Source: a virus. Taken from it: 57,489 nucleotides of DNA. Each line of letters begins with the position of its first letter. The first letter of the stretch is position 1. The DNA is taken from IMG/VR virus record IMGVR_UViG_3300031973_001259, positions 1 to 57,489 of that record; one strand, given 5' to 3'. Below, one piece after another: positions 12,342-30,382 of the stretch. A model generated the notes under the pieces. The model did no database searches. It saw nothing but the letters and a program-made list of their open reading frames with translations, and was not told the origin of the DNA. Both the position numbers and the translations under genes were made by a program.

Positions 12342-12902
12342 TCAAGATTCATCAATAATACTAATGTTCATAGCAACAGCAATCCTTCTCCCCTTCGTAG
12401 GCGGAACATGATGTGTAATGAATCCAGGAAACAAAACTAACATCCCATTCTTTACATGGACTTCCTTATCTTCCAATAAGATAGGAGCAACATCTTCTTC
12501 GACATCAATATAGTAAACGCAAGACCATGCTGATGGAAAGTGATCATGAGGGGTAGCTTGATCACCCTCCTCCATGACTACTGCCCATAAAGAAGCGAGT
12601 TTATACTTTGCATGAGTATGGAATACCTGCTCCGTAATGTAGTCTAGCACATATATGACATAATTGCCAATGTCCAAAAACCTATCATCAGTTTGATGTG
12701 TATCCCACTTAGTTAACCATGCCTTGACAGAATGGCCTGCGGTCTCATCTGTATCCAGATATTCTGGATCTTGAGATCTTTTCTCCAGAATTATATCTTT
12801 AAATCTATTAAATTCTTCTGGACCATTTTCAATAATAAAGGTGGGCAACTTAGTGACCACCTTATCATATTGAATAACCCTAGATGTAGGTCCGTTCTCC
12901 AT
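12342..12902 (-). CDS. 2-oxoglutarate/Fe(II) oxygenase-like protein
   Basis: A 186-residue paralogue of the gene at 11785. ATG at 12902 is preferred to a TTG at 12914; it overlaps the end of the protease-fibre gene by 23 bp. Shared elements are TPHDHFPSAWSCVYYIDVEE (candidate ligand His residues), MLVLFPGFITHHVPP (distal His) and GRRIAVAMNIS (Arg). Substrate is unknown; hydroxylation of a virion protein such as the adjacent fibre is one possibility. Confidence 0.65.
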   Translation of the reverse strand: MENGPTSRVIQYDKVVTKLPTFIIENGPEEFNRFKDIILEKRSQDPEYLDTDETAGHSVKAWLTKWDTHQTDDRFLDIGNYVIYVLDYITEQVFHTHAKYKLASLWAVVMEEGDQATPHDHFPSAWSCVYYIDVEEDVAPILLEDKEVHVKNGMLVLFPGFITHHVPPTKGRRIAVAMNISIIDES

Positions 12903-15900
12903 CTTGTCCACCAAGCGTCATAATACTAAGTTCGCCCAAGTCTTCAAGGGCAGGAATTCCATTATACACCCTAACGGTATATCCGTTAACTGTTCTGTCA
13001 GAAATTCGTAAATTAACGATACCACCTGGGAAAGCATTTGTACCACTTGCGATACCAATGACAGCATAGTCAGTATCATTCATTGCATCAGCAAAGTTAA
13101 CATTGTAGATACCAGTACCGGTTTGAACGATAGAGCTTACATTATGTGAGCGATCTCCAGGGACATAATCACTGTTACCAACACCAAGGTTAGTGTTCAT
13201 GTACCAAGAAGTGGCGCGACCTTCATAGAATTGAGTGTAAGTAGCAGTCTTGAGACCTACAAGATTCTTAAACTCCCCAACTCTGCTGACCTTATGGAAA
13301 TCATTATTAAACACTTGGATGGAGTTACCCATGCTTCCAAATTGTGTTCCAATACCAGCACCATAATACAAGAGTTGAGGAGTGTTCTCATCAATGAGAA
13401 TTTCAGTATAAGTTCCAGTCTCAGTTACATTATCAGAGTACTGATTCGGAGTTGTTGTACCAAATCCTACTGCAGAACCATCTGCAGCATAGTAGAACCT
13501 GATCGGATAGTTTACCTGCTGTGATGCATTCTCAAAGCGATAGGTTTGACCTACTTCAAATCTCAGGTAAGGAGATTCATAACCCTGAACATTGATAGAA
13601 CGATCAGATCCGATGCCATAATATCTGTGATCTGTTGTCTTTGTACCAATAGTAGTAGGTAGAGGCTTGTATGTGCCCTCAAACTGCGTATAAAGGTTCT
13701 TAGCGGTGTCTGCAGCGCCCGTTAAGGTGGAGAAACTAGAACTATTAGCAAAGAGTGCATTGTTTGCCTGAGAGGCGAGTCCAGCGAGCGTAGCGTAGGT
13801 AGCAATGCCAGCGACAATAGCCTCAGATGCAATACCTGCAAGTGTAGCACGAGGTGCCTCGTTAATCGTTACTGTAACGATACCAGCAGAGACTGGACTT
13901 ACATCGAGACCAGCATTAAAGTTGACTGTTCCTGCTGTACCGACTGCGGATCCAGAGTCTTGAATGATGACACCGGAACCAGAAGCAACAATATTAGTTA
14001 ACTGAGATCCGTCACCAATAAATCTCGGTGCAGTGATGTCATTATTAGATGTGATTGTAGCATCAACATCCAATTGAGAAGCTGTTCCTGCAGTTGTTGC
14101 ACTGTCAGCAGTATTTGCCGAGGTCGCTGTGGTTGCTACCGTAGCCAATCCAGCAACAGTTGCAAAGTCTGCTTGAGTTGCTTTAGGAACAGAAACCCCA
14201 GCGGCAAGACTATTAGCAGTTTGTGCAACACCTACGGTATCTGCAGCAGTAATAGTGACAATACCAGCAGAGATTTGAGATACTGTCAGATTCTGACCGA
14301 AGTTAATAGTAGCAGCAGTACCAACAGTACTATCATCATCCTTAATGATGACACCTGCACCAACACCAGTTACACCAGTAATACCAGAACCATCTCCAAA
14401 GAATGCAGTAGCAGTAATGTTACCGCTGGTATTAACATTGATGTTTGTACCAATACCAGAGGGACCAGGGTCCTGAGGTACAGAGTGAGCAACAAAAGTC
14501 AGATTGGGTTTAGAACCACGAACAATCAAGCTCTGACCCTTAGCAAGAGCAAGGTTGTCGATCTGAACATCCTGCAGAGGAGCCAGTCTTAAACCAAATA
14601 CCAGGTAGTCAGACTCTTGGAACTGTGCGAGACCACCAGAGGACAGACCAACTGACATGCCAACAGTAGAGTCAGAGTTCTGGTTTGTAGCATGAACTGT
14701 GACTAGGCTATCTTCTTGTGCTGTAAAAAACTCAAGGTTAGTATTGATCTGGAAAGGAGGATTGAATCCAAGAGTACCAGATCTTCTTCTACCATGAACC
14801 AGAGCAGAGTCAGGACCCAACTTATCAAACTTTCTAGTAGCAAAGGCAAGGAAAGAGATGTTAGGGTCGAAAGAAGATACGAAGATCTTATCTCCAGGTT
14901 TGATACCAACTTTTTCAATCAGTCTCGTACCACCTCTATCAAGGGGAATACCATAGGTAATATAGTCACTCCTTTTGAATCCAGGAGTACTAGAAATACC
15001 AATAGAGAATGTAGAACGGAAGTCGTTCTGGTTTGCAACACTAATGCTAACCTCAAGGAGGTTATCTGCCTCATATAACTGAACCGGCTCAACAACACCG
15101 TTCGTTAGTGTTGTTTTAATAGAAGCAAGTCTACCAACCTCAGCAAGAGCAGCAGAAGGAGTGGTGAAAGAAATTACTGCTGAGAAAGGAGATGTATGTT
15201 CAACACCAGATGTACCATCAGCGTTAGAAAGATGACGACATCTTACATAGAAGGTATGATTAGAGTTAAGTCCTTCAGGAATTATCTGAGATAAAGAAGT
15301 ATTATTGTTACCAACACTAGTAAATACTATAGTAGTAAATCCAATATCTTCAGCAACTTCAAACTCAACTGCTTTTAAAGTACCAGATACTGCTTCACTA
15401 TCAATAGAAACAAATGCACTGGATACAAGAGCAATACCAAATCTCTGATTTAGAGTAGTTCCACTGATAGGACTAATAATCGTAGGTGCCTGAACACCAG
15501 GAGCATTACCTAAGGTAGCGAATGAAACAATACCTGTAGAGTAATTAGAGGTATATGAAGTAAATGATGTGCCATCATCGTTAGACAGATGTCTTGTACG
15601 AGCATAGTGGGTCGTGAAACCTGCTAACTGAACATCAACTGTTTGGATTAGACTAGTATTATTATCTCCAGTAGATTCCCAGACAATAGAACTAAAGTCA
15701 GATGCAGTAGAGAGTTGCATCTCAACTGCTTTTAAAGTACCAGATACGGTAGTATCTCCAATAGCAACATAGCTACTAGATCTTATCTGTAAGCTTTCAG
15801 TACTAACACCAACATCATTATTGATTGGAGATTCAATAGTCGGTTCTGTAATACCAGCAGATTCTGTCAGAATACCAGAAGCAGTGTCAAGATAAACAAT

Positions 15901-17820
15901 CGCTACACTGCCACCAGATCCATCAGGACTTCTTTGGTTGAACTGACCAGTCCACCACTGAAAATTAGAATCACCATAGTCAGAAGTTGGAAACTGATCA
16001 AAGAGTAAATCGGAACCAGTCTGTGTACTACCAGCAGCAACAGTGGAAGAGTCCGTTGCACCAACACCAACACCCCGACCATAATCATTCAGCAACCACT
16101 GTCTCAGTTCCTGAGATGTAGCGTCAGGTTTTCTCTGCAAGTATAAAGCTACAAGACCAGTAACTACAGGAGCAGCAGCAGATGTACCGTTGAAGTTAGC
16201 GTCGAAATGAGTAGGATTATCATATCTCTGGAAGTCTGCATAAGGTCCACTAGGAAGACCAGCAGCTAGAGTGTCTTCAGCAGGTGCATAAATGTCAACA
16301 CCAGGACCACTATTAGAATATTCAGCTTTTCTTTCTTTGTAGCTAGATTCCACAAAGTCATCAAGAGCACCAACATTGATAACAGGATGATATCCAGTGG
16401 TCTCATCGACACCAATACCCTGAGGATTCATCCAATCCCTATGGGATGTTGGTGTCCTCTGTCCACCAAACTCAGCCCTTGGATCATTAGAACCAAAGTA
16501 TTGGTCGGCAACACCATTAAGTCTATGAGGATCTGTTCGTCCAATACCAATATACTGGTTGTTATTACCAGCAGCGGCAATCATAATTACACCGGCTTCG
16601 ATCATCTCAGCGCCAGCAGCATCAGTGGCGCTAGATCTAGATGAAGAAGACCATGATTTATAAGCACCTGATACTTGATTATTGAAACCAATAATCATAT
16701 CTTCAACACCAGCTGGAGCTCCAGCTGCGACACTGCTCATGTCAATGGTACTAGTAATACCAGTAAATTTGTATCTTACAGTTCCCGATGGGAGGACAGC
16801 AGCCTGATAACCCCAAGAACCATTAACAACCGTAGGATTTCTTACCCCAGTTTGAGTGTTTACTGGTTTATATTGATGGAAGAACTTAATGAGATCATAA
16901 GATGTCTCAATATCCATACCAACATTATCAGACACACAAGGCATTGCCCAGATGTTTGATTTAAATGCAAGACCAAAGTTCTTACCAGCAGCAAGAGATG
17001 CAGCTGCAGTACCGTGACCACTACCTAAGTTATTAGAACCTGCCGTGCCAATACCGATAGCACCATTTCTATTGTAACCAGGAGGAATAACTACTTCAGG
17101 AAGAAGAACGAACTCAGCAGATCTAGCATTGTTATCTTCCCACCATGCTTCAGCTCTAGCAGTATCAACACCTACTGATCCGTCTTCTAAGGTATAAACA
17201 AATCCACCACTATTAAAGTAACCAGGGTCAAGATAATATGGGAAGTCAAGAACAAGGTCAAGCACCCTACTTTTCCCACTATCATCCAAGAATTCTGGGT
17301 GTGATTGTAGAGTACCAGAGTCTTGAATAACAATATCTACATTTCTACCATCATATAAGAAGTTAAAGTTACCCTGCTTGGGTGCAATATCACCGACTAC
17401 ACCAGACCAAAAATCTCCGTTGGTTGCGATACCAGAAAGTCTAGGAAGTGCCCAGTTTGTTCTATTTAATTCTGCAGAAGTTGGATTTGAAGCTGGTGGA
17501 CCATTACTATCTAAATCTCTATAGATTTTAACATCACTATCAAACCTTAACGGCATTACCAGAGATGGATCTGGAAAGCTTTCTCTATTGTCCTTTAGTG
17601 AAAGTTCAATCCACTTAACATGAGGATGACGAGCAATCTCTTGAGCCTCGTCATCTGTTAACTCATAAGTACCACGAACTGCACTAATTGAGTGCTCATC
17701 GGTACAAGTAATTTTTCTGTCTGGAATTCCGTCCTGATTAGAGTCGATAGTGAGAGACCCATGGATCTCATTCCAATGATCAGCACTAGTAACTGCCAGG
17801 GTATATCTTTTAAGAGTCAT
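12880..17820 (-). CDS. Subtilisin-like protease fused to tail-fibre-like protein
   Basis: A 1646-residue protein. Residues about 45-75 resemble a subtilase I9-type propeptide (ELTDDEAQEIARHPHVKWIEL). Residues about 155-575 form a peptidase S8 domain with the full triad: Asp167 (VDIVIQDSG), His269 (GSGHGTAAA) and Ser547 (NGTSAAAP), plus the oxyanion Asn419 (AAAGNN). Two similar Fn3-like repeats follow (about 660-885, each with SGTLKAVE). The C-terminal half is phage-fibre-like, with two copies of an F-x-GDGS motif and Ala-rich repeats. No signal peptide is seen. It is probably a virion protein; the protease could process the fibre itself or attack host surface proteins. Confidence 0.85.
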   Translation of the reverse strand: MTLKRYTLAVTSADHWNEIHGSLTIDSNQDGIPDRKITCTDEHSISAVRGTYELTDDEAQEIARHPHVKWIELSLKDNRESFPDPSLVMPLRFDSDVKIYRDLDSNGPPASNPTSAELNRTNWALPRLSGIATNGDFWSGVVGDIAPKQGNFNFLYDGRNVDIVIQDSGTLQSHPEFLDDSGKSRVLDLVLDFPYYLDPGYFNSGGFVYTLEDGSVGVDTARAEAWWEDNNARSAEFVLLPEVVIPPGYNRNGAIGIGTAGSNNLGSGHGTAAASLAAGKNFGLAFKSNIWAMPCVSDNVGMDIETSYDLIKFFHQYKPVNTQTGVRNPTVVNGSWGYQAAVLPSGTVRYKFTGITSTIDMSSVAAGAPAGVEDMIIGFNNQVSGAYKSWSSSSRSSATDAAGAEMIEAGVIMIAAAGNNNQYIGIGRTDPHRLNGVADQYFGSNDPRAEFGGQRTPTSHRDWMNPQGIGVDETTGYHPVINVGALDDFVESSYKERKAEYSNSGPGVDIYAPAEDTLAAGLPSGPYADFQRYDNPTHFDANFNGTSAAAPVVTGLVALYLQRKPDATSQELRQWLLNDYGRGVGVGATDSSTVAAGSTQTGSDLLFDQFPTSDYGDSNFQWWTGQFNQRSPDGSGGSVAIVYLDTASGILTESAGITEPTIESPINNDVGVSTESLQIRSSSYVAIGDTTVSGTLKAVEMQLSTASDFSSIVWESTGDNNTSLIQTVDVQLAGFTTHYARTRHLSNDDGTSFTSYTSNYSTGIVSFATLGNAPGVQAPTIISPISGTTLNQRFGIALVSSAFVSIDSEAVSGTLKAVEFEVAEDIGFTTIVFTSVGNNNTSLSQIIPEGLNSNHTFYVRCRHLSNADGTSGVEHTSPFSAVISFTTPSAALAEVGRLASIKTTLTNGVVEPVQLYEADNLLEVSISVANQNDFRSTFSIGISSTPGFKRSDYITYGIPLDRGGTRLIEKVGIKPGDKIFVSSFDPNISFLAFATRKFDKLGPDSALVHGRRRSGTLGFNPPFQINTNLEFFTAQEDSLVTVHATNQNSDSTVGMSVGLSSGGLAQFQESDYLVFGLRLAPLQDVQIDNLALAKGQSLIVRGSKPNLTFVAHSVPQDPGPSGIGTNINVNTSGNITATAFFGDGSGITGVTGVGAGVIIKDDDSTVGTAATINFGQNLTVSQISAGIVTITAADTVGVAQTANSLAAGVSVPKATQADFATVAGLATVATTATSANTADSATTAGTASQLDVDATITSNNDITAPRFIGDGSQLTNIVASGSGVIIQDSGSAVGTAGTVNFNAGLDVSPVSAGIVTVTINEAPRATLAGIASEAIVAGIATYATLAGLASQANNALFANSSSFSTLTGAADTAKNLYTQFEGTYKPLPTTIGTKTTDHRYYGIGSDRSINVQGYESPYLRFEVGQTYRFENASQQVNYPIRFYYAADGSAVGFGTTTPNQYSDNVTETGTYTEILIDENTPQLLYYGAGIGTQFGSMGNSIQVFNNDFHKVSRVGEFKNLVGLKTATYTQFYEGRATSWYMNTNLGVGNSDYVPGDRSHNVSSIVQTGTGIYNVNFADAMNDTDYAVIGIASGTNAFPGGIVNLRISDRTVNGYTVRVYNGIPALEDLGELSIMTLGGQDGERTYI

Positions 17821-17893: not shown

Positions 17894-18691
17894 ATGAATA
17901 TTGTTACTGGAGCGAAGGGATTCATTGGTGGACACTTTGCCAAAAACATGGATAGTGTGCTTGAAATTGATATTGATAACTGCTTTGACCTGTTGAATAA
18001 ATTTAATCGTTGGGAAGAGGTAAACACAATCATCCACATGGGTGCTCGCTCATTCACAACAGATAAAAATGTAGATTTAATTTACAAGTATAATATTGAT
18101 TATAGCATCAAGCTATTTGAAAAGGCAATTGAGTATGGTATTCCCGTCAAGTATGCCTCCTCTGCTTCCACTTATGGTCGTTGCATGTCAACTGATGGTA
18201 TTATTAATCCTCTAAACCACTACGCATTATCAAAAGCAACGGTTGATTACTGGGTGCAAGACAATATGCATAGATTCTCACACATCCAAGGATTTAAGTT
18301 CTTTAATGTATATGGTAGCGGTGAGGTCCACAAAGGAGAGCAGGCAAGCCTTGTAAGTAAGTTCAAGTGGCAATCTGCTACAGGCAAAGTTCATCCCTTT
18401 GAAGGATCAAATAAGGTACATAGAGATTATATCTGGGTAGGAGACATTGTAAATGTTGTGCTCACTAATAGTGCAGGTAGTGGTATCTATGACCTAGGAA
18501 CTGGTGCTGCAATTACTATTCAAGAAGTGGCAGATTTAGTTGCACAAAAAACCGAGGCTATGGTAGAGGAAATTCCTTTCCCACCAAACCTCGTTGGTAA
18601 GTATCAATACAATACTCAAGCAGATATGAATTGGTTAAACTATAAGTTCAAAACCGTTGCTGATTATATCAATTACCACGATGAATTCTGA
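17894..18691 (+). CDS. hldD: ADP-heptose 6-epimerase-like NAD-dependent epimerase
   Basis: A 265-residue short-chain epimerase. ATG at 17894 is chosen because the Rossmann motif TGAKGFIGGHF begins at residue 5; an upstream in-frame extension is unsupported. The catalytic Y110-x-x-x-K114 (HYALSKAT) and the HldD-type FFNVYG, then HKGEQAS stretch are present. HldD converts ADP-D-glycero- to ADP-L-glycero-D-manno-heptose. Length is below bacterial HldD (about 310). It is the only plus-strand gene among minus-strand neighbours and overlaps the cupin gene end-to-end by 23 bp. Confidence 0.8.
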   Translation: MNIVTGAKGFIGGHFAKNMDSVLEIDIDNCFDLLNKFNRWEEVNTIIHMGARSFTTDKNVDLIYKYNIDYSIKLFEKAIEYGIPVKYASSASTYGRCMSTDGIINPLNHYALSKATVDYWVQDNMHRFSHIQGFKFFNVYGSGEVHKGEQASLVSKFKWQSATGKVHPFEGSNKVHRDYIWVGDIVNVVLTNSAGSGIYDLGTGAAITIQEVADLVAQKTEAMVEEIPFPPNLVGKYQYNTQADMNWLNYKFKTVADYINYHDEF

Positions 18692-19028
18692 TTGAGTCTG
18701 AATCAAAGTGTTGCGTTGAGAATTCAAACAGTTCTGAGTCTTCCAACGCAATCATCTGATGCTTTAGCCCAGTAGGAACATAAAACTTATCTCCAGGTTC
18801 TAAGACTTTAAGTTCTGCTTTACTGAGATCTTCATCCCACCCAAAATACAATGAGATGAGACCACTCTGTAGGTAGAAGGTCTCATCTTTTATTTTATGG
18901 TAGTGCCACGAGCACCTTTTGTTCTTTTCCAGGAACAAAAGTTTACCACAGTACATTTCATTATTTACAATCCACTTTTCATAACCCCATCCTTTGGGGA
19001 CTACCTTAATTGAAGAAGTCTTTGTCAT
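18669..19028 (-). CDS. Cupin-fold protein, sugar-phosphate isomerase-like
   Basis: A 119-residue single-domain cupin; ATG at 19028 is used rather than an upstream TTG. Metal-binding motif 1 is SWHYHKIKDETFYLQSG (two His and a Glu) and motif 2 LEPGDKFYVPTGLKHQM. The opening KGWGYEKWIVNN resembles the type II mannose-6-phosphate isomerase cupin. In this cassette an isomerase or epimerase step on a sugar phosphate is plausible, but the substrate is not visible. It overlaps the HAD gene by 23 bp. Confidence 0.7.
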   Translation of the reverse strand: MTKTSSIKVVPKGWGYEKWIVNNEMYCGKLLFLEKNKRCSWHYHKIKDETFYLQSGLISLYFGWDEDLSKAELKVLEPGDKFYVPTGLKHQMIALEDSELFEFSTQHFDSDSIRIHRGN

Positions 19029-19329
19029 TAATTCCCTTGTCGTCAATGTAATAATCTGATGATGGTTTACCTAGATATAAATTATGAAACTTACACCCCC
19101 ACGACTCTAATTGATTCTTAGTAAATTCGTAGAACTCTTTCTCAGCTAACTCACGATTATTATCGTACCTACCCATGCCTCTGGCGGTAAGATAATTTAT
19201 AGTATGACCTTCATCATAAAGCTTATTTATTTTCTGTATACGATCCCATCTAGGGGTTGCGAGAGTATACCTAGATTCTCCCTTCCCAGCATAGCAAATT
19301 GTTTCATCGATATCAACAGTATATCTCAT
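19006..19329 (-). CDS. HAD-superfamily phosphatase-like protein
   Basis: A 107-residue HAD-like protein. Motif I is VDIDETIC (residues 5-12), motif II is in NYLTARGMGR (Thr/Arg), and the C-terminal motif is YYIDDKGIND. Small HAD proteins of this kind sit in capsule and nucleotide-sugar clusters. In ADP-heptose synthesis a GmhB-type phosphatase removes the 7-phosphate from heptose 1,7-bisphosphate; this gene is the only candidate here for that step. It is shorter than GmhB (about 190), so the match is tentative. It overlaps the kinase gene by 4 bp. Confidence 0.65.
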   Translation of the reverse strand: MRYTVDIDETICYAGKGESRYTLATPRWDRIQKINKLYDEGHTINYLTARGMGRYDNNRELAEKEFYEFTKNQLESWGCKFHNLYLGKPSSDYYIDDKGINDKDFFN

Positions 19330-20120
19330 ATATTTAAAATCCTATCAACATTATTCATAGTGAGAATATATGTACCAGGATTCTGTACTGCAATAGCAGC
19401 TGCCTTATTAGCAAAACAAATTGCTTCATCCATTGACGGAAGTTGAATGTAATAGAAAACTAAAGATGCAAGGAAAGTATCTCCAGCTCCAGTCACATCA
19501 AATGTCCGAACAAGATCTGCACATGGAAACTTTTTCTTATTCCATGCAGCACCCTCAGACCCCATGGTAACAATCATATTCGTAGAGTTTGGAATATGAT
19601 CTGGATCTAAACTCTCAAATTCTTTCTTGTTAATTTTATAGATGACATTACTGTGCTCCGTAGGAAGTATAGTTTTTTTCGTATCCACAAATATCTTAGT
19701 ATTAGGATACCTACCAGCAATGTCACTGATTGTTTTTGCGTCGGGAATATAACCTTTGTTATAGTCCGAAATGACAATAGCATCATATGTTTCATGCAAT
19801 AAAGCCATCTGCAGTTCAGATGGATGCAAGGGTTTTACATCAGGTTCATTATCTACTCGGACAATCTGTTGGTTAGATCTAATATCAATATATCTCGTCT
19901 TAGTGAGAGGTTCCTTATTAGTAAGAAAAGTTACATTAATACCAAGAGACTCTAGATTTGCATGAACATTAGCAGCCATGCCAGGTGCCTGTTCTTTTTG
20001 ACTTTGAATCAATATAGGAACTGGTGCCTCTGGGCTTAGTCTATTGCATGGACCATAGACCCATTCATCAGTACAACTATCCCCGATCAATAATACTTTG
20101 TATGGTCTTGCTAGTTGCAT
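19326..20120 (-). CDS. hldE: PfkB-family heptose kinase (HldE N-domain-like)
   Basis: A 264-residue ribokinase-fold kinase equivalent to the N-terminal domain of HldE, which phosphorylates D-glycero-D-manno-heptose 7-phosphate at O1. CNRLSPEAPVPIL (residues 25-37) is close to the HldE motif, and DVTGAGDTF with catalytic Asp214 is the PfkB signature. Bacterial HldE kinase domains are about 310 residues, so this one is compact. It overlaps the adenylyltransferase gene by 44 bp, as if a bifunctional HldE had been split in two in reversed order. Confidence 0.8.
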   Translation of the reverse strand: MQLARPYKVLLIGDSCTDEWVYGPCNRLSPEAPVPILIQSQKEQAPGMAANVHANLESLGINVTFLTNKEPLTKTRYIDIRSNQQIVRVDNEPDVKPLHPSELQMALLHETYDAIVISDYNKGYIPDAKTISDIAGRYPNTKIFVDTKKTILPTEHSNVIYKINKKEFESLDPDHIPNSTNMIVTMGSEGAAWNKKKFPCADLVRTFDVTGAGDTFLASLVFYYIQLPSMDEAICFANKAAAIAVQNPGTYILTMNNVDRILNI

Positions 20121-20481
20121 AATCTTCTAACCTAGGGAAAAAATGTAATTCAGTAGCGTACATAGATCCAATGACTGACTTTCCTTCCCAGTCAGATCCT
20201 ACTACCATTATATCAGGTGCAGTAACAGCTATGCACTTTTCTAGTTCTTCATCAGAACCAAATAGAACTACATGATCTACAGTCTTAAGACTTTGTAGCA
20301 TGTATGCTCTATCTTCGGCGTTATTTATTGGGCGAGAAGGACCTTTCTTTTCCCTTACCCGCTCATCACTATCAATACCAACAACTACTACATCACCCAT
20401 AGACTTTGCATACTCTAAGAGTTGCAAATGTCCAGAATGAAGAATATCAAAGGTTCCGTTTACAAAAACTTTTTTAGTCAT
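20077..20481 (-). CDS. Nucleotidyltransferase (HldE C-domain / TagD-like)
   Basis: A 134-residue cytidylyltransferase-like protein with the HxGH motif in FVNGTFDILHSGHLQLL (His15, His18) and a later ISTSS-like position reading YATSKTIQSII. In context it would be the heptose-1-phosphate adenylyltransferase half of HldE; a glycerol-3-phosphate cytidylyltransferase is the alternative. It overlaps the carbamoyltransferase by 8 bp and the kinase by 44 bp. Confidence 0.8.
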   Translation of the reverse strand: MTKKVFVNGTFDILHSGHLQLLEYAKSMGDVVVVGIDSDERVREKKGPSRPINNAEDRAYMLQSLKTVDHVVLFGSDEELEKCIAVTAPDIMVVGSDWEGKSVIGSMYATELHFFPRLEDYATSKTIQSIIDRG

Positions 20482-22267
20482 TAGATACCTGGATTATTTT
20501 ACCATATTCAGGAAGATAAAGATACTCGATATCAGAGTTAGCAAGAGTACGGCAAGCGTCGTCCAAGGTCTCCACCAGAGGTTCACCACCAAGATTAAAA
20601 GAGGTATTGAACAAAATCGGACAACCCGTAGCATCATAGAAGGTTTTGATGAGGTCATAGTAATTCTTGTTCTGTTCTTCAGTAACAGTTTGAATACGAC
20701 ATGTTCCGTCAACATGAATAATAGCTGGGATCTTTTCTTCAATACCAGGTTGACACTTAACAGCATACATCATGAAGGGAGTATCTTCCATCCCACGCAA
20801 ATCAAACCATTCGTCAGCATATTCAGCAAGAATAGATCCAGCAAAGGGACGGAAGTATTCACGATGCTTCACATTATTAACAAAATCTTTACCCTCAGGA
20901 TCACGGGGATCATAAAGAATAGAACGATTGCCGAGAGCACGAGGACCAGCTTCTGATTTTCCTTGGAAAAGTGCGACGATATTCTCATTAGAGATCAAAT
21001 TAATTACATCGTCATTGTTAGCATCACTTACAATACCACTATACTTGTCAGCAATATCAATAATCTGCTCAATAGTATAGTTATAGTCAGGACCATAGTA
21101 CAAATCAGTAATTCTAGAGGGAACTGTTGTTTGTTTCTTACCATTCAATTGATAATGTACATATAAGGCAGCTCCAATAGCAGTTCCACCATCATTACTG
21201 ACAGGTTCAACAAAGAGATTGATACCATCTTCTTTCAACTTATCAAGATACCAATAGTTTGCTACACAATTCAATCCATATCCACCAGAAAGAACAATAT
21301 TCTTTTTACCAGTGAGTTCAACTGCTTTATAGATTAGCTTCAAAACTGCTTCTTGCGTTTCAGTTTGCACTGCATAAGCAAAGTCTCTACGATTCTTAAG
21401 TTTGGTCAAATCGTCAGAATCATGATTATTTAAAAAAGGATATTCTTGAACATTAACATGCCCAGCATTAGGATAAGTAGGAACAATAACATTCCTATCT
21501 ACTGTTCCAACCTCTTTAAATAGAGTGGGGACTTCTTCGTTAGGTTCTCCATATGGAAATAATCCCATAGTTTTACCAGCCTCGATAGCATGCCAACCAC
21601 AGTATTGTGTAGCAGCTTCATATGCTTTTACGATACCTGCAGTTTCATCGAGAGTATAAGAGAAGAAACCAGTTTCACCAGGATAAGCCATTGCTGCTTC
21701 CATTTCAGGAACATAATTTGTGCAGCAGGGACCACGAGTTCCGAGATGTTTATATACAGTATTAATGTCGTTTGGGAACTTACAATTAAAAATAGTTTCA
21801 GTTTCCCATACAGTTTCAGTATGCCCCATTACATCAAACTGAATGAAGGTTCCGGCTCCATCAACTACAAGTGCAGCTGCTTCTTCAAATCCAGACCGAT
21901 AAAAAGCAGCAGCAGCATGAAGTTTATGGTGAACATTACCAACATCAACAACTTGAGGATGCATCTTGCTTGGATCTGGTTCTACATCTTTAATCAAACC
22001 AAGTTTTCTTGCCATCCCAACATAGATTGCCTCATTGCTATACTCAAGACTACCACAATCCCTCTCCATTAATTGAGTGTGACCAACAACAAGATAATCA
22101 AGTTTATCAGTGTACTTCTGTATCTCTAATAGTGAGGCAATAGGTCCGCCATCATATTTACGACGAGATAATCTCTCTTCCTCAACAGCAAAAATAAGCT
22201 CACCATCTTTCAGAAGACATACTCCAGCGTTGTGTCCGCGAGTGATACCAGCAATCCACTGTGTCAT
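20474..22267 (-). CDS. NodU/CmcH-type carbamoyltransferase
   Basis: A 597-residue O-carbamoyltransferase. The Kae1-like N-domain has GITRGHNAGVCLLKDGELIF and EEERLSRRKYDG, a metal-binding HHKLHAAAAFYRSGF (about residues 113-127), VVDGAGT, and the VLSGGYGLNCVANYW stretch (about 320). The YrdC-like C-domain contains EAGPRALGNRSIL and FNTSFNLGGEPLVET. Length is typical. These enzymes move carbamoyl from carbamoyl phosphate via carbamoyl-AMP to a sugar hydroxyl. Beside heptose genes the acceptor could be a heptose, as known for the Pseudomonas LPS core. Confidence 0.9.
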   Translation of the reverse strand: MTQWIAGITRGHNAGVCLLKDGELIFAVEEERLSRRKYDGGPIASLLEIQKYTDKLDYLVVGHTQLMERDCGSLEYSNEAIYVGMARKLGLIKDVEPDPSKMHPQVVDVGNVHHKLHAAAAFYRSGFEEAAALVVDGAGTFIQFDVMGHTETVWETETIFNCKFPNDINTVYKHLGTRGPCCTNYVPEMEAAMAYPGETGFFSYTLDETAGIVKAYEAATQYCGWHAIEAGKTMGLFPYGEPNEEVPTLFKEVGTVDRNVIVPTYPNAGHVNVQEYPFLNNHDSDDLTKLKNRRDFAYAVQTETQEAVLKLIYKAVELTGKKNIVLSGGYGLNCVANYWYLDKLKEDGINLFVEPVSNDGGTAIGAALYVHYQLNGKKQTTVPSRITDLYYGPDYNYTIEQIIDIADKYSGIVSDANNDDVINLISNENIVALFQGKSEAGPRALGNRSILYDPRDPEGKDFVNNVKHREYFRPFAGSILAEYADEWFDLRGMEDTPFMMYAVKCQPGIEEKIPAIIHVDGTCRIQTVTEEQNKNYYDLIKTFYDATGCPILFNTSFNLGGEPLVETLDDACRTLANSDIEYLYLPEYGKIIQVSND

Positions 22268-23244
22268 TTACCAAATCCTTTTGTAGGGGTTTCTGTTGTC
22301 TCTTTTTTCTTTACCGGTTTTCCAAGTCTATCTCTACAAGACTTTAACACACTTTCAATATCATCTTCTGTCATTGCCATACATTCATCATTCTGCATGT
22401 CAGCATAGTCTTCCATTGTCAATCTAATGGGAGAGAATGTTCTCTTATCCTCTCCCAAATCAATTATATCAAATTGATCGTCATTTGGATAGCTAATATT
22501 GATAGGATATGTTGATCCAATCACTGCTGTTACACTAGTATCAGTTGCAGCTGCAATGTGTTGACCAACAGAATCGCAACCCAAGAAATGATCTGCCCTA
22601 TTAATAATAGATGTCCAAATACGGACATCAGGAATTTGAGGTAGAATAAACGGATACTTAGAATCTCCATCCTCTGTCTGAAATGGGAACTCAGACATTA
22701 CAATCACACAGTAATCTTTTTTGAGATCATTAACAATCTTACTAATATCTCCAAGACTAAAACTTCTAGATGTTGGGTCAAAAATATACCCACCCTCATC
22801 CATTACACCTCTACCAAAAGGTTGAATTACAATAACCTTTTCTTTACCAGTAGCTTTAATTGCGTTATCGACTAGTTGAAGACCCTGAATACCCTCATGC
22901 TTTGCTAGTTTAATCGTAGGTTTGGGAAGTTCCCTAGGCTCTTCTGTGCCATTGATTTCCATATCAAATGCTTGAGCAATACTACATTTTTGATTGTAGT
23001 AATGCCAACGACGATATGGTTCAGGTGTGACACAATCTCTGTCTTTGATCTTATCTTCAAAAAGATCTTTATGCCAGTTATCGTATGCGTATTTGTGAAG
23101 GACTGGATGGGACTTGTAGAAGTTCATCCCACCCTCACACACAATGATAAAATCATCATGTGTTTCTGCATATTTTTCAAAGGCAGGGATGGAGGTGATA
23201 ACTCTACCAGCTCCTCCATTAATGAAGAATGCTTTTGATCTCAT
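22264..23244 (-). CDS. GT9-like (heptosyltransferase-like) glycosyltransferase
   Basis: A 326-residue GT-B-like protein. The N-terminal AFFINGGAGRVITSIPAFEKY corresponds to the GT9 GxGDVI-type opening. The C-terminal FLGCDSVGQHIAAA and AVIGSTYP match the donor-binding motif of ADP-heptose:LPS heptosyltransferases. An unusual Lys/Thr-rich tail (about residues 305-326) ends the protein. It is coupled to the carbamoyltransferase by an ATGA overlap. The acceptor is unknown; other GT9-like sugars cannot be excluded. Confidence 0.65.
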   Translation of the reverse strand: MRSKAFFINGGAGRVITSIPAFEKYAETHDDFIIVCEGGMNFYKSHPVLHKYAYDNWHKDLFEDKIKDRDCVTPEPYRRWHYYNQKCSIAQAFDMEINGTEEPRELPKPTIKLAKHEGIQGLQLVDNAIKATGKEKVIVIQPFGRGVMDEGGYIFDPTSRSFSLGDISKIVNDLKKDYCVIVMSEFPFQTEDGDSKYPFILPQIPDVRIWTSIINRADHFLGCDSVGQHIAAATDTSVTAVIGSTYPINISYPNDDQFDIIDLGEDKRTFSPIRLTMEDYADMQNDECMAMTEDDIESVLKSCRDRLGKPVKKKETTETPTKGFGK

Positions 23245-24086: not shown

Positions 24087-24968
24087 TCAGGACCAAGTTG
24101 TAACAACAACCAGTCCACCACCACCCCAGTCACCCCAGCATTGACTGCCTTGGGTAGATCCAGAGAATCCACCGCCACCAGGGAACAACGAAGGTGAAGA
24201 ACAACATCCTCTACTGTTACCATAGGAGCAGCGAGTTACACCAAAGTTTCTATCTGTGGACCAAGGACCAACTGGAGAAGATGCAACTGCAAAGTCGTCC
24301 GAGTGACAACTATACGATTTAAATTCACCACCGGACAAACCACAAATGTAGAATTCGTTTTCTGGGTTTGCTGTATCAGGCTTAGATTGTCCATCAGGCC
24401 AAGAAGCAGAGCAAGCGTTATAACAATTGTTTCTTTGTGCTTGCTTTGCACAGGCATAACAAGAAGCAACTGTACACTTTTGGTTAGAGTAAGATCCGCC
24501 CTGCATACAGAAGGTTCCTAATCCACCACCTAAGACGAAAGAAGGGCACCCATAGAATCCACAACCGGTTCTACCGTGACAACAACCACAGCAGGAACAC
24601 CTACTAGTAGATCCCGAACAAATTGTAAACTGAGTAGATCCAGCGACAAAATGACCACAGTTAGCGTACTGCATCTTGGTGGCATAACCACCACCACCGC
24701 CACCCATACCAGCACCGTTGCCGCAGCAACGACCACCTGCACCTGATCCACCACCAGATACAATTTCAAATTGAATAGTGGTTACTTTTTCTGGTACGGT
24801 CCAGAGGTAACAACATCCACCATTACATGGGACATTATGACAACAGTTATAATAGAAGCTTCGACAAACATTACCCGTAGATACGCCCGTTACTTTAGTT
24901 GGACCTACAGTTCCGTTAATAAATGCATCATCAGCATCAATTTTTTTATAGGTCTGATAATCCGCCAT
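24087..24968 (-). CDS. Cysteine-rich glycine-rich tail adhesin, copy 1
   Basis: A 293-residue protein with 29 cysteines, including CC, CxCC and CGCCHGRTGCGFYGC clusters. Residues about 57-80 (WTVPEKVTTIQFEIVSGGGSG) match the glycine-rich fold of phage fibre-tip proteins, and GGGGG loops and FPGGGGFSG recur to the C-terminal VVTTWS. It is a paralogue of the gene at 25748, with every cysteine conserved. A virion tip adhesin stabilised by disulfides or metal is the best guess. It lacks a signal peptide, so oxidation would have to occur after lysis or with help. Confidence 0.75.
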   Translation of the reverse strand: MADYQTYKKIDADDAFINGTVGPTKVTGVSTGNVCRSFYYNCCHNVPCNGGCCYLWTVPEKVTTIQFEIVSGGGSGAGGRCCGNGAGMGGGGGGYATKMQYANCGHFVAGSTQFTICSGSTSRCSCCGCCHGRTGCGFYGCPSFVLGGGLGTFCMQGGSYSNQKCTVASCYACAKQAQRNNCYNACSASWPDGQSKPDTANPENEFYICGLSGGEFKSYSCHSDDFAVASSPVGPWSTDRNFGVTRCSYGNSRGCCSSPSLFPGGGGFSGSTQGSQCWGDWGGGGLVVVTTWS

Positions 24969-24973
24969 AATAA

Positions 24974-25717
24974 TTAGGCTCCTACAGTGCTAGTATCAGT
25001 AGAATCCAATCCAGTCTCAGGAGAATCTCCAGTAAATGCGTCACGATCACCAGGCTCTCTAGGCCATACGATCAGATAAGTATTGTTACCAACACTACTC
25101 CAAGTATCTGGCAAGTCTCTCAACTTTTGACGATATGTTGTCCACTCACTAACAAAACCTGCTGGAGCGTCTGCAGGAATTTTATCATCAGATTGTGCAA
25201 GTAAGATATCTCTTGTTCTTCTTACTTCTTCCCATCCAAAGGAATGACTAGCAGATTCATCTTCTAGATCAATTTCTGTGTGGGGACCAGAGAATCTACC
25301 TGTATTCCAAAGACTAGTCTCAAAATTATAACCGAATGAGCACATATCATATACTTCATTGAAGTAAAGATAGTTAGGAATGATTGGGTTAGGCTCCGAA
25401 TCAGGACCAGCAGGAGTTTCAATCAGTTCTGGAGGAAGAATACCTCCATACATTGCAACTGCATTCATAGGATGAGTATCAGCATTAAGCTCAACAACTC
25501 TTGCCCCAGCTGGAGGATCTCTGTCTTCACCAGGATCAGATGGGAAAGAATGCTCTACTTCCCACTTAGGATCAGCATCTGTTCCATTATTCATATACCA
25601 GAAAGTAATCCTATCTGGTCCAGTATATGTACAGATACCACTTCTATTTGTGTCCTGAGTATCGCCATACCACTCGGTAGGTACAGGATAAACAATTGTT
25701 TTAGTAATTTGCGCCAT
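24974..25717 (-). CDS. Tail assembly chaperone-like protein
   Basis: A 247-residue protein. The C-terminal part (about residues 161-206), GWEEVRRTRDILLAQSDDKI...WTTYRQKLRDLP, matches the phage tail-fibre assembly chaperone domain (Phage_tail_APC-like). The N-terminal 150 residues are Pro/Asp/Gly-rich beta structure and may be structural. It is placed between the two cysteine-rich paralogues and is transcribed with copy 1 from the late promoter at 25742. It probably assists their folding or attachment. Confidence 0.65.
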   Translation of the reverse strand: MAQITKTIVYPVPTEWYGDTQDTNRSGICTYTGPDRITFWYMNNGTDADPKWEVEHSFPSDPGEDRDPPAGARVVELNADTHPMNAVAMYGGILPPELIETPAGPDSEPNPIIPNYLYFNEVYDMCSFGYNFETSLWNTGRFSGPHTEIDLEDESASHSFGWEEVRRTRDILLAQSDDKIPADAPAGFVSEWTTYRQKLRDLPDTWSSVGNNTYLIVWPREPGDRDAFTGDSPETGLDSTDTSTVGA

Positions 25718-25741: not shown

Positions 25742-25748
25742 TATTTAT
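25742..25748 (-). promoter_or_regulatory. T4-type late promoter fused to adhesin copy 2 stop
   Basis: The minus strand reads TGATAAATA, where TGA ends adhesin copy 2 and ATAAATA is the promoter element, about 25 bp upstream of the chaperone-like gene. Confidence 0.6.
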
Positions 25749-26626
25749 CAGGACCAAGTTGTAACAACTACGAGACCGCCGCCGCCCCAGTCACCCCAGC
25801 ATTGACCACCTTGACTCGCACCACTAAATCCACCACCACCAGGGAACAACGAAGGTGAAGAACAACATCCTCTAGTGTCACCAGTGGAGCAACGACCTAC
25901 TCCAAAGTTTCTTCCACTTGTCCAAGGACCAACTGGAGAAGATGCAACTGAAAATGATCTTGAGTGACAGTTAACATGCTTCAGTTCACCACCGGACAAA
26001 CCACAAATATAGAATTCGTTTTCTGGGTTTGCTGAATCAGGCTTAGATTGTCCATCAGGCCAAGAAGCAGAGCAAGCAGTAAGACAGTTGGTTCTTTGTG
26101 CTACTTTCAGGCAAGCGTAGCAACTATTAGTGCATCTCTGCGATGCGAAAGATCCACCTTGCATACAGAAGGTTCCTAATCCACCACCTAAGACGAAAGA
26201 AGGGCACCCATAGAATCCACAACCGGTTCTGCCATGGCAACATCCACAACAAGAACATCTGCTACTGGAACCAGCACAAACAGTAAACTGAGTAGATCCA
26301 GCGACAAAATGACCACAGTTAGCGTACTGCATTTTAGTAGCGTAACCGCCGCCGCCTCCACCCATGCCAGGTCCATTACCACAGCAACGACCACCTGCAC
26401 CTGATCCGCCACCAGATATAATTTCAAATTGAATCGTAGTTACTTTTTCTGGTACGGTCCAAAGGTAGCAGCAACCGCCATTACATGGGACATTATGGCA
26501 ACAGTTAAAATAAAAGCTTCTACAAACATTACCTGTAGATACGCCCGTTACCTTACCGGGTCCAATGGTTCCATCAATAACTGCATCAGAGGCATCGATT
26601 TTTTTATAGGTTTGATAGTCAGCCAT
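25748..26626 (-). CDS. Cysteine-rich glycine-rich tail adhesin, copy 2
   Basis: A 292-residue paralogue of the gene at 24087. The N-terminal 150 residues and the last 60 are nearly identical between the copies. Divergence is concentrated in two stretches, about residues 154-175 (SFASQRCTNSCYACLK here) and 212-255. All 29 cysteines are at equivalent places. The pattern suggests a recent duplication with selection on variable, probably receptor-facing, loops. It has its own late promoter at 26660. Confidence 0.75.
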   Translation of the reverse strand: MADYQTYKKIDASDAVIDGTIGPGKVTGVSTGNVCRSFYFNCCHNVPCNGGCCYLWTVPEKVTTIQFEIISGGGSGAGGRCCGNGPGMGGGGGGYATKMQYANCGHFVAGSTQFTVCAGSSSRCSCCGCCHGRTGCGFYGCPSFVLGGGLGTFCMQGGSFASQRCTNSCYACLKVAQRTNCLTACSASWPDGQSKPDSANPENEFYICGLSGGELKHVNCHSRSFSVASSPVGPWTSGRNFGVGRCSTGDTRGCCSSPSLFPGGGGFSGASQGGQCWGDWGGGGLVVVTTWS

Positions 26627-26713: not shown

Positions 26714-29700
26714 TCAGATGGTGATGATTCTCCATCCTTGTGATCCATCATAGTATACCAATTCAAATGCCGCGCCTTCAGTAGATACAACCAAGTCAGC
26801 AGCGTCACCCATGATTGGTTCACCATTTCTACCAATTGTAAGGTTGTTAGTATCAAATGTCTTGGCGATATCAAAGATTCTAATGGAGTCACCCTTAACA
26901 GGAGATAAAGGTAAAGTGACAGTGAATGAACCACCACTAGTATTACACCAAGCTTGCTGTCTATTTGCCAATGTAGTTCCATCAGCACTGACATCTACAT
27001 TAGCGTAAGCACCTAGAGGCAACCAACTAGATCCGTTATAGAATTCAAATCCATCAGCATCAGTATCGTAACGAAGACCACCTTCGATCAGATCAACACC
27101 AGTTGGACGAGAGGCTTGAGCACCACGAGGAGGAACCAGGATACCAGAAGTGGAATCCATCTTACCGCGAGTGAGGAAGCCACGAACTGCTTTCTCAGTA
27201 GGACATGCACTGTTAGAGTCGCCAGACAGGAATTCGTCCGAGGAGAATTCGTTGACTGCTTCACCAATCTGACCACCAATGGCACCCAGTCTCAGTTCAG
27301 AAAGACCTGACAGGTTGAATGCGGAAGCATCCAGGGTAGCAGCACCAGTCAACTGGTTAACAGAGAAGTATTCACCAACTCTGAAGTTACCGCCTTGGTC
27401 AGTAGATACGAAGAAGATCTTACCAGTATTCAGTACAGTTGTCTCGTTACCCTGAGAAGCTGTGTTCTCATCAACAGTTGGATAATTAGTTTGTGAGGTG
27501 TTACCTGTACCAATTAGCAGGAAGTCATGACCTGTGAGACGAACCTTGGAGAACTTAGATCTCATCAAGAACTCTTGATCATCAAACGAAGCAGGAGCAG
27601 ATCCTTTAACTGGTGCAATGTTGATCGTTGCACGACCAGATGCAAAGTCATATGCAGAAACTGTTCTAATAATGTAACTAATTGAATCGGAGAATCCCAA
27701 TCCAACTGTAGTGAATCCAATCGCATCACCAACAAGTGGTGTTGTACTCAGTCCGACTACTTCAAATAGTCCATCTTTCTGTCCGCCAACGGCGTTAGAT
27801 GCAGATGCAATCTTAACATATCCTGTAGCACCAGCACCAACACTGTCAAATTCAATGAACTCACCAGGTGTGAAGACAGTAGTACCAACACCAACAGCAC
27901 CGTTAGCACCATCGGGGTTACCAAATCCAGCATTGTACTTAAAGTACAGTTGATCACCAGCGATCTGATTGTTTGTAACAACAGCACGAGCTCCTGATAC
28001 AGTACCACGCATCGTAGCACCAACAGAGATAGTACCAGCAGAAGTACCAACTTGGGTAGACATCTTGTCACCATAGAGGCGACCAGGACGAGCAGATTCT
28101 AGTGTGGAGAATCCAACAGCCAATGCACCGTAGTTACCATAGGAGTTGTTACCTGAGAGAGATCTGATTTCAGATCCATCATCAGAAACATAACCGAAAG
28201 CACAGTAGTAAGTGAAGGAAGAAACAATTTCAGCAAGAGCATCGTCTTCAAGCCAGAAACCTACGCCACCGGAGTGAATGTTGGTAAAGGCATCGAATAC
28301 CATCGATTTACCACCTCTACCCTCTCGTGCTTGCCTGGCTTCGTGAACACCACCCTCAATAAAGACACCAATAGCACCTTGATGTCCAGTGCCGTCAATA
28401 CACAGGTTAGAGAAGGCAGTACAGTCTTTGATGTAGGGTGAACGCTCAAGGATAGGAGTATCAGGATTAAGTCTGAAGTAAACACCGCAAGATGTAGTAC
28501 CTACACCAACCTTGGGTTGCCACTTATCAGTATTGAAAGCATCATTAGTGTCATAATTAAATCCTTGCAGACCACGCATCGTGATTGCCTGAACCGTAGT
28601 AGAGTCAGACACGAAGAACATCGTCTGACGGCTATTAGGAACAAGACCGTCAGTGGAAACACCAGGTGCTGGTTCAACAGTCGTTCCTCTCAGGACATCA
28701 CCGGCAATGGAGAAGTTCTTAGGTAGAGTAATAGGAAGCTGTTCACTGAATACACCAGCAGACAACTTAAGAATGATAGGAGATACATCAGTAACCTCAC
28801 CACCACTCACATAAGTATGAGCAATAGTAGAGATGCCAACATTAGTTACGAAACTGTTGGAATCATTAACGGCGTCAACTCTAAAGAAGAATCCTTGTGT
28901 ACCATCAGGGAAGATAGTAGTTGTAACACCAGCATGTGCCTGAGCACAAGTGAATGCAATACCCTGAAGTTTAACCTGACCCTGAGGGAACAAACCATGG
29001 GCAGCAGCAGTAACTGTTGCAATACCACTGGTTTCATCATAAACAAAGTTTGTGATATCCCTTCTGGTTTGACCAGCAGTAGAAGCATAAGCAATTGAAC
29101 CCCAAGCATTGTCTGGGGTAAGACCTGTGTTATTATTACTACCCTGCTGTGCATCAACATAGTATACCTTGGTGCGAAGACCAGGATACTGCCACTCAAT
29201 CTCATCGCCAGAAGAGACTCTTAGATATGTGCCTTGCGTACCAATACCCTGTCTCGTAGGTCCAGTACCATCTCTGGTAAGCAAGTCACCTTTGGTTGTC
29301 AGCAGTGCTGCGCTGTCACCGATAGCGAACGCTGCCCACATGCTAACAGCAGTACCAGGTTGAACATTAATGTTCGATGAAGCTACCGAGATGTAAGCAG
29401 AGGATGAATACTCGGCAACATCACCGATCTCATATACACTAGAACCACTCCAGGTACTTCTCCAGTTAAATCCTCTAGCTAACAGAGACCAACCATTAGT
29501 ACCAGTATCAATGGTAGTAATAGCAGTACCGACAGGTCGGTTGTCTCCAAGAATCTTAACTTGGTCAGCAATATAAGTATTACCACCAAGGGTTACAATC
29601 TCACCACGAGCATAGATCTCATTAGGATCGTAGGTAGTACCTGCTCCAGTACCAATACCACCAACAAGAACTGACCACTGATCAGCGTTTTCGTTAGGTT

Positions 29701-30382
29701 GAGCACCTTTAGGGTTAGTACCGATAGCAACATAAGATGCACCGATGTACTCTACAATATCCCCCCTTTCATAGCGGGTATTTGCATTGTAAAGACCTTC
29801 ATTAGTGAAGGCTTTATTAAAGTCTGTAAAATTAGATGCTGGAGGATAGAAACCATCCGAACCTACTCCAGTAGGATCATGGAAACTAGTAGAAACCCCC
29901 TGCATTGTAAAGTCGCTAGCGACTTGGAAGGGAACAATTGTACGATACTCTTGTCCACCATACTTAACAACATCATTGATGCCATAATAAGTGGCAGTTG
30001 TAAAAGCACCTCGGAAGTTCAGTCCCTCAGCATAGAGATCCCAGTATGCTGGGAAATCAGAACTGTACCAGTTGCTTTGTACACCAACTGACACATGTTG
30101 TGCCGTACAGATATATTGATTACCGCCTTCCTTGACGATATCGTTTACAACATATCCGGTGCTAACTGTCCACTCGCCAGCATAGTTCTGACCCTCTGTA
30201 TGGAGGTCCCAGTTGGCACTATCGTTTGGAAATCCAGTAGAACTGGCATCTGAAGTATGATTTGTTGTACAAACATAACTGCTGGCACCGTATCTAACGA
30301 TGTCATCAATAATGAATGCGGTAGAAGCTGTCCAGGCACCACGCCAGTTAAATTTCAGTCTACCAAGTCTAAATTCTGCCAT
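26714..30382 (-). CDS. Large tail-fibre or virion structural protein
   Basis: A 1222-residue protein. The N-terminal third (to about residue 350) has at least five repeats of a W-x-Y-x-x-xDIV-x-YG-x-xY pattern (for example DIVRYGASSYVC, DIVKEGGNQYIC, DVVKYGGQEYRT), resembling small carbohydrate-binding modules. The middle (about 400-850) looks like a beta-solenoid fibre. The C-terminal part has FFVSTDQGGNFRVGEYFSVNQ and a GGLRYDTDADGFEFYNGSSW collar-like region. It is a late structural gene of a type common in cyanophages and probably binds the host envelope. Confidence 0.75.
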   Translation of the reverse strand: MAEFRLGRLKFNWRGAWTASTAFIIDDIVRYGASSYVCTTNHTSDASSTGFPNDSANWDLHTEGQNYAGEWTVSTGYVVNDIVKEGGNQYICTAQHVSVGVQSNWYSSDFPAYWDLYAEGLNFRGAFTTATYYGINDVVKYGGQEYRTIVPFQVASDFTMQGVSTSFHDPTGVGSDGFYPPASNFTDFNKAFTNEGLYNANTRYERGDIVEYIGASYVAIGTNPKGAQPNENADQWSVLVGGIGTGAGTTYDPNEIYARGEIVTLGGNTYIADQVKILGDNRPVGTAITTIDTGTNGWSLLARGFNWRSTWSGSSVYEIGDVAEYSSSAYISVASSNINVQPGTAVSMWAAFAIGDSAALLTTKGDLLTRDGTGPTRQGIGTQGTYLRVSSGDEIEWQYPGLRTKVYYVDAQQGSNNNTGLTPDNAWGSIAYASTAGQTRRDITNFVYDETSGIATVTAAAHGLFPQGQVKLQGIAFTCAQAHAGVTTTIFPDGTQGFFFRVDAVNDSNSFVTNVGISTIAHTYVSGGEVTDVSPIILKLSAGVFSEQLPITLPKNFSIAGDVLRGTTVEPAPGVSTDGLVPNSRQTMFFVSDSTTVQAITMRGLQGFNYDTNDAFNTDKWQPKVGVGTTSCGVYFRLNPDTPILERSPYIKDCTAFSNLCIDGTGHQGAIGVFIEGGVHEARQAREGRGGKSMVFDAFTNIHSGGVGFWLEDDALAEIVSSFTYYCAFGYVSDDGSEIRSLSGNNSYGNYGALAVGFSTLESARPGRLYGDKMSTQVGTSAGTISVGATMRGTVSGARAVVTNNQIAGDQLYFKYNAGFGNPDGANGAVGVGTTVFTPGEFIEFDSVGAGATGYVKIASASNAVGGQKDGLFEVVGLSTTPLVGDAIGFTTVGLGFSDSISYIIRTVSAYDFASGRATINIAPVKGSAPASFDDQEFLMRSKFSKVRLTGHDFLLIGTGNTSQTNYPTVDENTASQGNETTVLNTGKIFFVSTDQGGNFRVGEYFSVNQLTGAATLDASAFNLSGLSELRLGAIGGQIGEAVNEFSSDEFLSGDSNSACPTEKAVRGFLTRGKMDSTSGILVPPRGAQASRPTGVDLIEGGLRYDTDADGFEFYNGSSWLPLGAYANVDVSADGTTLANRQQAWCNTSGGSFTVTLPLSPVKGDSIRIFDIAKTFDTNNLTIGRNGEPIMGDAADLVVSTEGAAFELVYYDGSQGWRIITI

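Follow-up and report, generated by a model that had tools for sequence, protein, structure and literature searches.

A cyanophage gene cassette predicted to make activated heptose, with a cupin as candidate isomerase in place of GmhA

Introduction

The adenosine diphosphate (ADP)-heptose pathway of the E. coli type employs GmhA, HldE, GmhB and HldD, and the guanosine diphosphate (GDP)-heptose pathway employs GmhA, HddA and HddC. Here we describe a seven-gene cassette at positions 17894–23244 of a 57,489-base viral sequence from IMG/VR (the window, meaning the whole stretch analysed). The cassette probably encodes a nucleoside diphosphate (NDP)-heptose pathway that needs no GmhA and leads from sedoheptulose-7-phosphate to an activated heptose, followed by transfer and carbamoylation. 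It shares with the E. coli-type pathway the kinase, nucleotidyltransferase and epimerase families, the predicted order of chemistry and the presence of an HAD phosphatase. It differs in that the kinase and nucleotidyltransferase are separate genes, a cupin stands in the slot of the SIS-type GmhA, and the HAD protein is of the EcbF/BcbF type.

Related genes have been noticed in cyanophages before. A comparison of 16 cyanophages in 2010 found a set of co-occurring T4-GCs, among them 304, 305, 307 and 308, in P-SSM2, S-SM2 and S-SSM7, and did not decide between functional genes and 'stuffer' (PMC3037559). Notes in phage records identify T4-GCs 304, 305, 307 and 308 as nucleotidyltransferase, kinase, cupin and epimerase; 303 is the carbamoyltransferase. 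The genes of these lipopolysaccharide ('LPS') clusters are orthologous to the window cassette but, unlike in the present reading, were assigned no pathway or function (PMC3037559). The cassette is therefore already known as a gene set, and the biochemical reading is what we add.

Results

A seven-gene cassette in a cyanophage fragment

The window is a cyanophage fragment, marked by psbA, psbD, purM and purC together with T4-type tail and replication genes. Its gp32-like protein shares 72–73% identity with the S-T4, S-SCSM1 and P-SSM2/P-SSM5 counterparts. The seven cassette genes are all intact; the epimerase gene lies on the plus strand and the other six on the minus strand, where the order of transcription is GT9-like, NodU, nucleotidyltransferase, PfkB kinase, HAD and cupin, with successive neighbours overlapping. 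The original prediction for this DNA had named six gene types, all of which are intact open reading frames located as predicted and backed by family matches. Its gene list was incomplete, having overlooked the cupin gene between the HAD gene and the epimerase. The cassette is made up as follows.

17894..18691, plus strand: HldD-like NDP-heptose 6-epimerase, short form
18669..19028, minus strand: cupin, proposed isomerase in GmhA's place (from D-lyxose isomerase contacts, Foldseek and co-occurrence with the kinase)
19006..19329, minus strand: HAD phosphatase, EcbF/BcbF-like, proposed heptose-1,7-bisphosphate 7-phosphatase
19326..20120, minus strand: PfkB-family heptose-7-phosphate kinase, like HldE domain I
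20077..20481, minus strand: heptose-1-phosphate nucleotidyltransferase, like HldE domain II
20474..22267, minus strand: NodU-type O-carbamoyltransferase
22264..23244, minus strand: GT9-like glycosyltransferase, probable ADP-heptose heptosyltransferase

Kinase, phosphatase, nucleotidyltransferase and epimerase

For the epimerase, kinase and nucleotidyltransferase alike, heptose enzymes led the NCBIfam matches by a wide margin; the NCBIfam scores lie under the curated cut-offs. The best family for the epimerase was TIGR02197 (ADP-glyceromanno-heptose 6-epimerase, 1.2e-52) and the best PDB match of its profile was HldD (1eq2, 2.5e-58); alignment to 1eq2 shows that the HldD catalytic positions Y140, K144 and K178 are retained. 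The kinase matched rfaE_dom_I (TIGR02198) at 5.3e-41, compared with 1.2e-13 for the best non-HldE model, and its profile found HldA (4e84, 2e-28) as the best PDB match. The nucleotidyltransferase matched rfaE_dom_II (TIGR02199) at 2.1e-33, compared with 1.4e-20 for the best non-HldE model. An ADP-heptose-type pathway, as originally predicted, is thus supported by several enzyme families that independently match heptose enzymes best.

Promiscuous nucleotidyltransferases carry an Arg in the motif (F/L)xxGRSTT (PMC11461863, PMC11573728). As the alignment reads, the phage protein has a Tyr at the Arg position, a difference that would favour ADP-heptose, and ADP can be proposed as the nucleotide of the product with low certainty.

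The HAD protein matched EcbF-BcbF (TIGR01689, 1.9e-07), and its profile matched 9iqw (3.2e-16) and also 1xpj in the PDB. Its motif residues D6, D8, T48, K88, D96 and D97 are invariant. No GmhB family match was found for this protein, though the HAD catalytic motifs are present. Related phage records name the gene 'phosphoheptose isomerase'; this name looks wrong, and the gene appears to encode a phosphatase. In the viral genomes L150 and SynMITS9220M01 a homologous HAD domain is fused to a nucleotidyltransferase, which supports the view that the HAD enzyme acts next to the nucleotidyltransferase.

A cupin resembling D-lyxose isomerases

Judging by sequence and structure comparison, the cupin is likely to be an isomerase that replaces GmhA. 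Chemically, the conversion of sedoheptulose-7-phosphate to D-glycero-D-manno-heptose-7-phosphate is that of fructose to mannose with one more carbon in the chain. When a profile built from 59 viral cupins was searched against the PDB, D-lyxose and L-ribose isomerases were among the best matches, though weak ones. The Pfam family Lyx_isomer was matched by 26 of the 59 homologues (best 4.8e-4), the window protein itself giving no match at E<=0.01. Structures were predicted with AlphaFold from the IMG/VR sequences; the cupin model had a predicted local distance difference test (pLDDT) score of 93, and Foldseek placed D-lyxose isomerases, some of them in complex with fructose or mannose, at ranks 1–5, with other cupins close behind these five.

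In the D-lyxose isomerase of Thermofilum (TsLI), sugar and metal are contacted by K62, H75, H77, K86, E88, H143, E156 and D163; changing the residues at the K86, E156 and D163 positions inactivates a related enzyme (PMC8378251). By alignment, these contacts map to K29, H42, H44, K47, E49, H90, E102 and D109 of the cupin, with all eight kept. Seven of the residues are identical in 59/59 cupin homologues; at the remaining position 53 have D and 6 have E. This residue-by-residue match is the strongest point in favour of the predicted isomerase function. The phage cupin thus has the fold and the eight contact residues in common with D-lyxose isomerases (TsLI, 7nzo; B. subtilis, 2y0o), but it is shorter, its overall sequence match to them is weak and its substrate is probably phosphorylated.

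Two other assignments were considered. Type-II phosphomannose isomerase as the nearest family gave a weaker match than D-lyxose isomerase. The cupin is also labelled 'cysteine dioxygenase' (a PHROG name) in related phages; no such Pfam family was found among the 59 members, which matched Cupin_2, Cupin_1, Lyx_isomer and others. The cysteine dioxygenase family is not known to have the Glu ligand, which is kept in the phage cupin. The nearest cellular relatives are short host cupins (L254, L255 and L256; E about 1e-19), which we take to resemble phosphomannose isomerase.

The cupin is not confined to cassettes with an HldE-type kinase. In phage Bellamy the cupin is flanked by an HddA-like kinase (7.2e-83) on one side and an HddC-like guanylyltransferase (4.2e-17) on the other, and an HAD gene is nearby. 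In gene content Bellamy resembles the GDP-heptose pathway but is without SIS-type GmhA; the window has an HldE-type kinase in place of HddA. Since the unrelated HldE- and HddA-type kinases both take heptose-7-phosphate, the cupin that they share is best read as its source.

The order of chemistry would also be workable on a hexose, with the cupin converting fructose-6-phosphate to mannose-6-phosphate, the kinase forming mannose-1,6-bisphosphate, the HAD enzyme releasing mannose-1-phosphate and the nucleotidyltransferase producing NDP-mannose, and the wider relatives of the cupin do include phosphomannose isomerases. We regard this route as improbable, given the wide margin by which kinase, nucleotidyltransferase and epimerase favour heptose enzymes, the pairing of the cupin with an HddA-like heptose kinase, and the heptosyltransferase-like fold of the GT9-like protein (see below); an HldD-type C6 epimerase would moreover be useless on a hexose.

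In a literature search outside whose scope most subscription papers fell, cupin and phosphoheptose isomerase never occurred in one paper, nor did cupin, heptose, isomerase and sedoheptulose all together. Assigning the cupin as the isomerase of a heptose pathway appears to be new.

Recurrence of the cassette among marine phages

Megablast revealed no close DNA relatives of the window among isolated phages, and protein comparison was used for this reason. In the phage collection, 31 records of cyanophages or marine viruses contain relatives of the kinase. The block recurs in the isolated cyanophages P-SSM2, S-CAM1, S-CAM3, S-SSM7 and Sf-FS3, and the cassette genes also lie together in dozens of IMG/VR contigs, so the arrangement is not due to chance. 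Two genomic contexts were seen. In S-CAM1, S-CAM3, S-SSM7 and Sf-FS3 the cassette, with NodU and GT9-like genes, sits beside tail fibre and neck/tail genes, a setting shared by P-SSM2, where it is beside tail fibre genes, and by the window. In S-T4, Sf-CH8, P-TIM68 and S-SM2 it lies among other sugar genes.

Cupin, kinase, HAD and nucleotidyltransferase form a core of four that was present in 13/13 phage records first compared, across which the cupin was among the best conserved proteins (56–70% identity to the window protein). We then counted genes at 43 viral loci anchored on the kinase, each with at least 4 kb of flank on either side. All 43 had the cupin and the nucleotidyltransferase, 42 the HAD gene, 35 the epimerase, 29 the GT9-like gene and 28 NodU; GmhA was found in 0. 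When kinases were clustered at 80% identity, the cupin was present in 30/30 clusters.

That the genes are non-functional filler for headful packaging, a possibility raised in 2010 (PMC3037559), seems scarcely credible in view of the intact reading frames, the catalytic residues that are invariant over dozens of diverged loci, and the two genomic contexts.

P-TIM68 (L088) and S-SM2 (L089) have a transketolase-like gene upstream of the heptose kinase, either directly or at a distance of one gene; it is possibly a source of sedoheptulose-phosphate. A phage transaldolase, considered as another link to the supply of sedoheptulose, was present in 12/12 genomes tested, a set without cassette-free cyanophages, and is not used as evidence. 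On the 63.7-kb contig L174, a phage-type cupin is flanked by two methyltransferase-like genes, and no HldE-type kinase was found there. A phage-type cupin was also seen in L372 (G089 contig 3, from a 1.4-Mb picocyanobacterial genome), with a phage-type kinase about 12 kb away; L372 is probably a phage contig within the host assembly.

GmhA in phages and hosts

The window itself has no match to PF13580 (SIS_2) or TIGR00441, in agreement with the original prediction that GmhA is absent from it. A search for gmhA elsewhere in the phage, which that prediction had called for, was made in ten whole isolated phages with either the cassette itself or a variant form, and the same two models gave no match in P-SSM2, Sf-FS3, S-CAM3, S-SSM7, S-CAM1, S-T4, Sf-CH8, P-TIM68, S-SM2 or Bellamy. 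Nor was any SIS/GmhA protein found in six large IMG/VR contigs, including one of 179.8 kb with an identical cupin and kinase.

The corresponding search in hosts was mostly negative. Synechococcus WH7803, the named host of S-CAM1 and S-T4, had no match to the GmhA model. Of 201 picocyanobacterial genomes, 157 were without a GmhA match and 44 had a GmhA-like gene; an HldE-type kinase was present in 27. Most Synechococcus also have SIS_2 matches, which were rejected as GmhA because they are weak and fall in frames of about 320–340 residues that are more like another SIS protein.

Those 44 genomes leave room for a supply of heptose-7-phosphate by the host, through GmhA or a different isomerase, while the cupin acts otherwise, for example in later modification of the sugar, and cupins in sugar clusters can indeed be epimerases or of unknown role. 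We consider this unlikely: S-CAM1 and S-T4 infect a strain that shows no GmhA-model match, the cupin is present at every kinase locus with enough flank, and its ketol-isomerase active site is kept.

Starting instead from GmhA, we found 80 viral loci, 24 of which have an HldE-like kinase and 0/24 a cupin. This mutual exclusion is weaker evidence than the 43/43 count because the two groups are different lineages.

Transfer, carbamoylation and the acceptor

The NodU-type carbamoyltransferase named in the original prediction has both Pfam domains above the gathering cut-off (Carbam_trans_C, PF16861, 1.7e-60; Carbam_trans_N, PF02543, 1.8e-26). The comparisons gave no support for the 7-O position of the carbamoyl group to which that prediction had pointed. 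The GT9-like protein of the window matched PF01075 weakly (0.0052, under the gathering score); among its homologues 16/40 matched this family (best 3.1e-5) and no other family was matched. A profile of the GT9-like family searched against PDB sequences found nothing. With the AlphaFold model (pLDDT 88), the top 30 Foldseek matches were all GT9 family members or heptosyltransferases, with TibC (4rap/4rb4), 3tov, WaaF and WaaC in the top ranks, but at only about 10–12% identity and template-modelling (TM) scores of about 0.43–0.63. This structure comparison agrees with the GT9-like assignment made originally, and the modelled fold makes the protein a probable ADP-heptose heptosyltransferase. Protein heptosyltransferases of the TibC type (BAHT) have an iron finger with two CxxC motifs. 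Their fold fits the phage protein, but 0/40 GT9-like sequences contain at least two CxxC motifs, and the TibC type was rejected.

Near the cassette the window has two genes related to tail fibres.

24974..25717, minus strand: tail fibre assembly-like protein, adjoining GT9-bearing cassettes (phrog_4912, 5.6e-10)
26714..30382, minus strand: tail fibre protein, either a candidate acceptor or no more than a neighbour (phrog_9851, 1.5e-248)

Homologues of the tail fibre and tail-fibre-assembly genes adjoin 10/19 clusters with the GT9-like gene and 0/12 clusters without it (p=0.002), a neighbourhood that suggests a virion acceptor. Alternatively, the product of the same pathway could be attached during infection to LPS or capsule on the host surface, where it might, for instance, prevent superinfection. 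An LPS role has been given to cyanophage sugar clusters (PMC3037559), and cassettes of the second context have other glycosyltransferases around them and are remote from structural genes. We regard a surface acceptor, which competes with the acceptor step only, as a real but lesser possibility, given the tail fibre association, which synteny could itself explain. As the original prediction had stated, LPS without heptose has been reported for marine Synechococcus, in the two strains WH8102 and CC9311 (PMC4515613).

Other features of the window

Adjacent to the cassette, 12880–17820 (minus strand) encodes a 1646-residue protein in which a subtilase (PF00082, 1.4e-19) is joined to tail-fibre-like regions; its homologues adjoin some cassettes. 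A second sugar cassette at 41160–51012 (minus strand) contains a GDP-mannose dehydratase, an epimerase, GT11, GT6, GT25 and other glycosyltransferases and a C-methyltransferase, and looks like a GDP-fucose-type glycan set. Two paralogues at 24087–24968 and 25748–26626 (minus strand; phrog_4205) have 29 Cys and more than 50 Gly each, and a tryptophan halogenase-like gene lies at 37722–38834 (minus strand; PF04820, 5.4e-33). ATAAATA motifs fall on the minus strand, the strand of most window genes, in 17 of 18 cases; their total count equals chance, and we make no claim for them as a late-promoter signal.

Discussion

Enzyme families and conserved catalytic residues were established by comparison, and from these we infer the reactions, the nucleotide, the order of the last two steps and the acceptor. 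The cupin would first isomerise sedoheptulose-7-phosphate, an intermediate of the Calvin cycle and the pentose-phosphate pathway, to D-glycero-D-manno-heptose-7-phosphate, turning a ketose into a manno-aldose as from fructose to mannose. The PfkB kinase would then form the 1,7-bisphosphate, the HAD enzyme would remove the 7-phosphate, and the nucleotidyltransferase would yield NDP-heptose, most likely ADP-heptose. After C6 epimerisation by the HldD-like enzyme, the GT9-like transferase would place the heptose on an acceptor and the NodU enzyme would carbamoylate the sugar. A tail fibre or other virion protein is favoured as acceptor over a host surface glycan.

Several observations weigh against this pathway. 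All of its steps are predictions from comparison, and the epimerase, kinase and nucleotidyltransferase fall short of the NCBIfam curated cut-offs. Cupins are a diverse group, and the phage cupin is shorter than known D-lyxose isomerases and matches them weakly in sequence (E about 5e-4 to 1e-3); its isomerase role is likewise a prediction, and use of a 7-phosphorylated sugar is a proposal. GmhA-like genes do occur in some hosts (44/201), and L150 and SynMITS9220M01 encode both the cupin and an SIS protein, the latter grouped with its own HddA-like kinase and the HAD–nucleotidyltransferase fusion. On two partial contigs (L174 and L161) the cupin is present and an HldE-type kinase is not. About one third of the cassettes at the 43 loci are without GT9 and NodU, and the end product therefore varies among phages. 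Finally, synteny alone, without function, could account for the adjacency of GT9 and tail fibre genes.

On balance, we lean towards the view that the cupin represents a family of heptose-7-phosphate isomerases that is independent of GmhA, has no relation to SIS enzymes and serves HldE- and HddA-type kinases in marine phages, which would thereby install a heptose that may be carbamoylated in hosts unable to make heptose. If this is true, the first step of heptose synthesis has a second, unrelated enzyme family, and the running of a heptose pathway in hosts without GmhA is explained. A double misannotation would then extend throughout phage records, with the HAD phosphatase named as an isomerase and the isomerase as a cysteine dioxygenase. 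A commentary on recent work describes the phosphatase as absent in viruses (PMC11461863), and the HAD protein would be a candidate for it. The cassette genes, for which the cyanophage genomics of 2010 considered both a function and a stuffer role, would thus gain a function.

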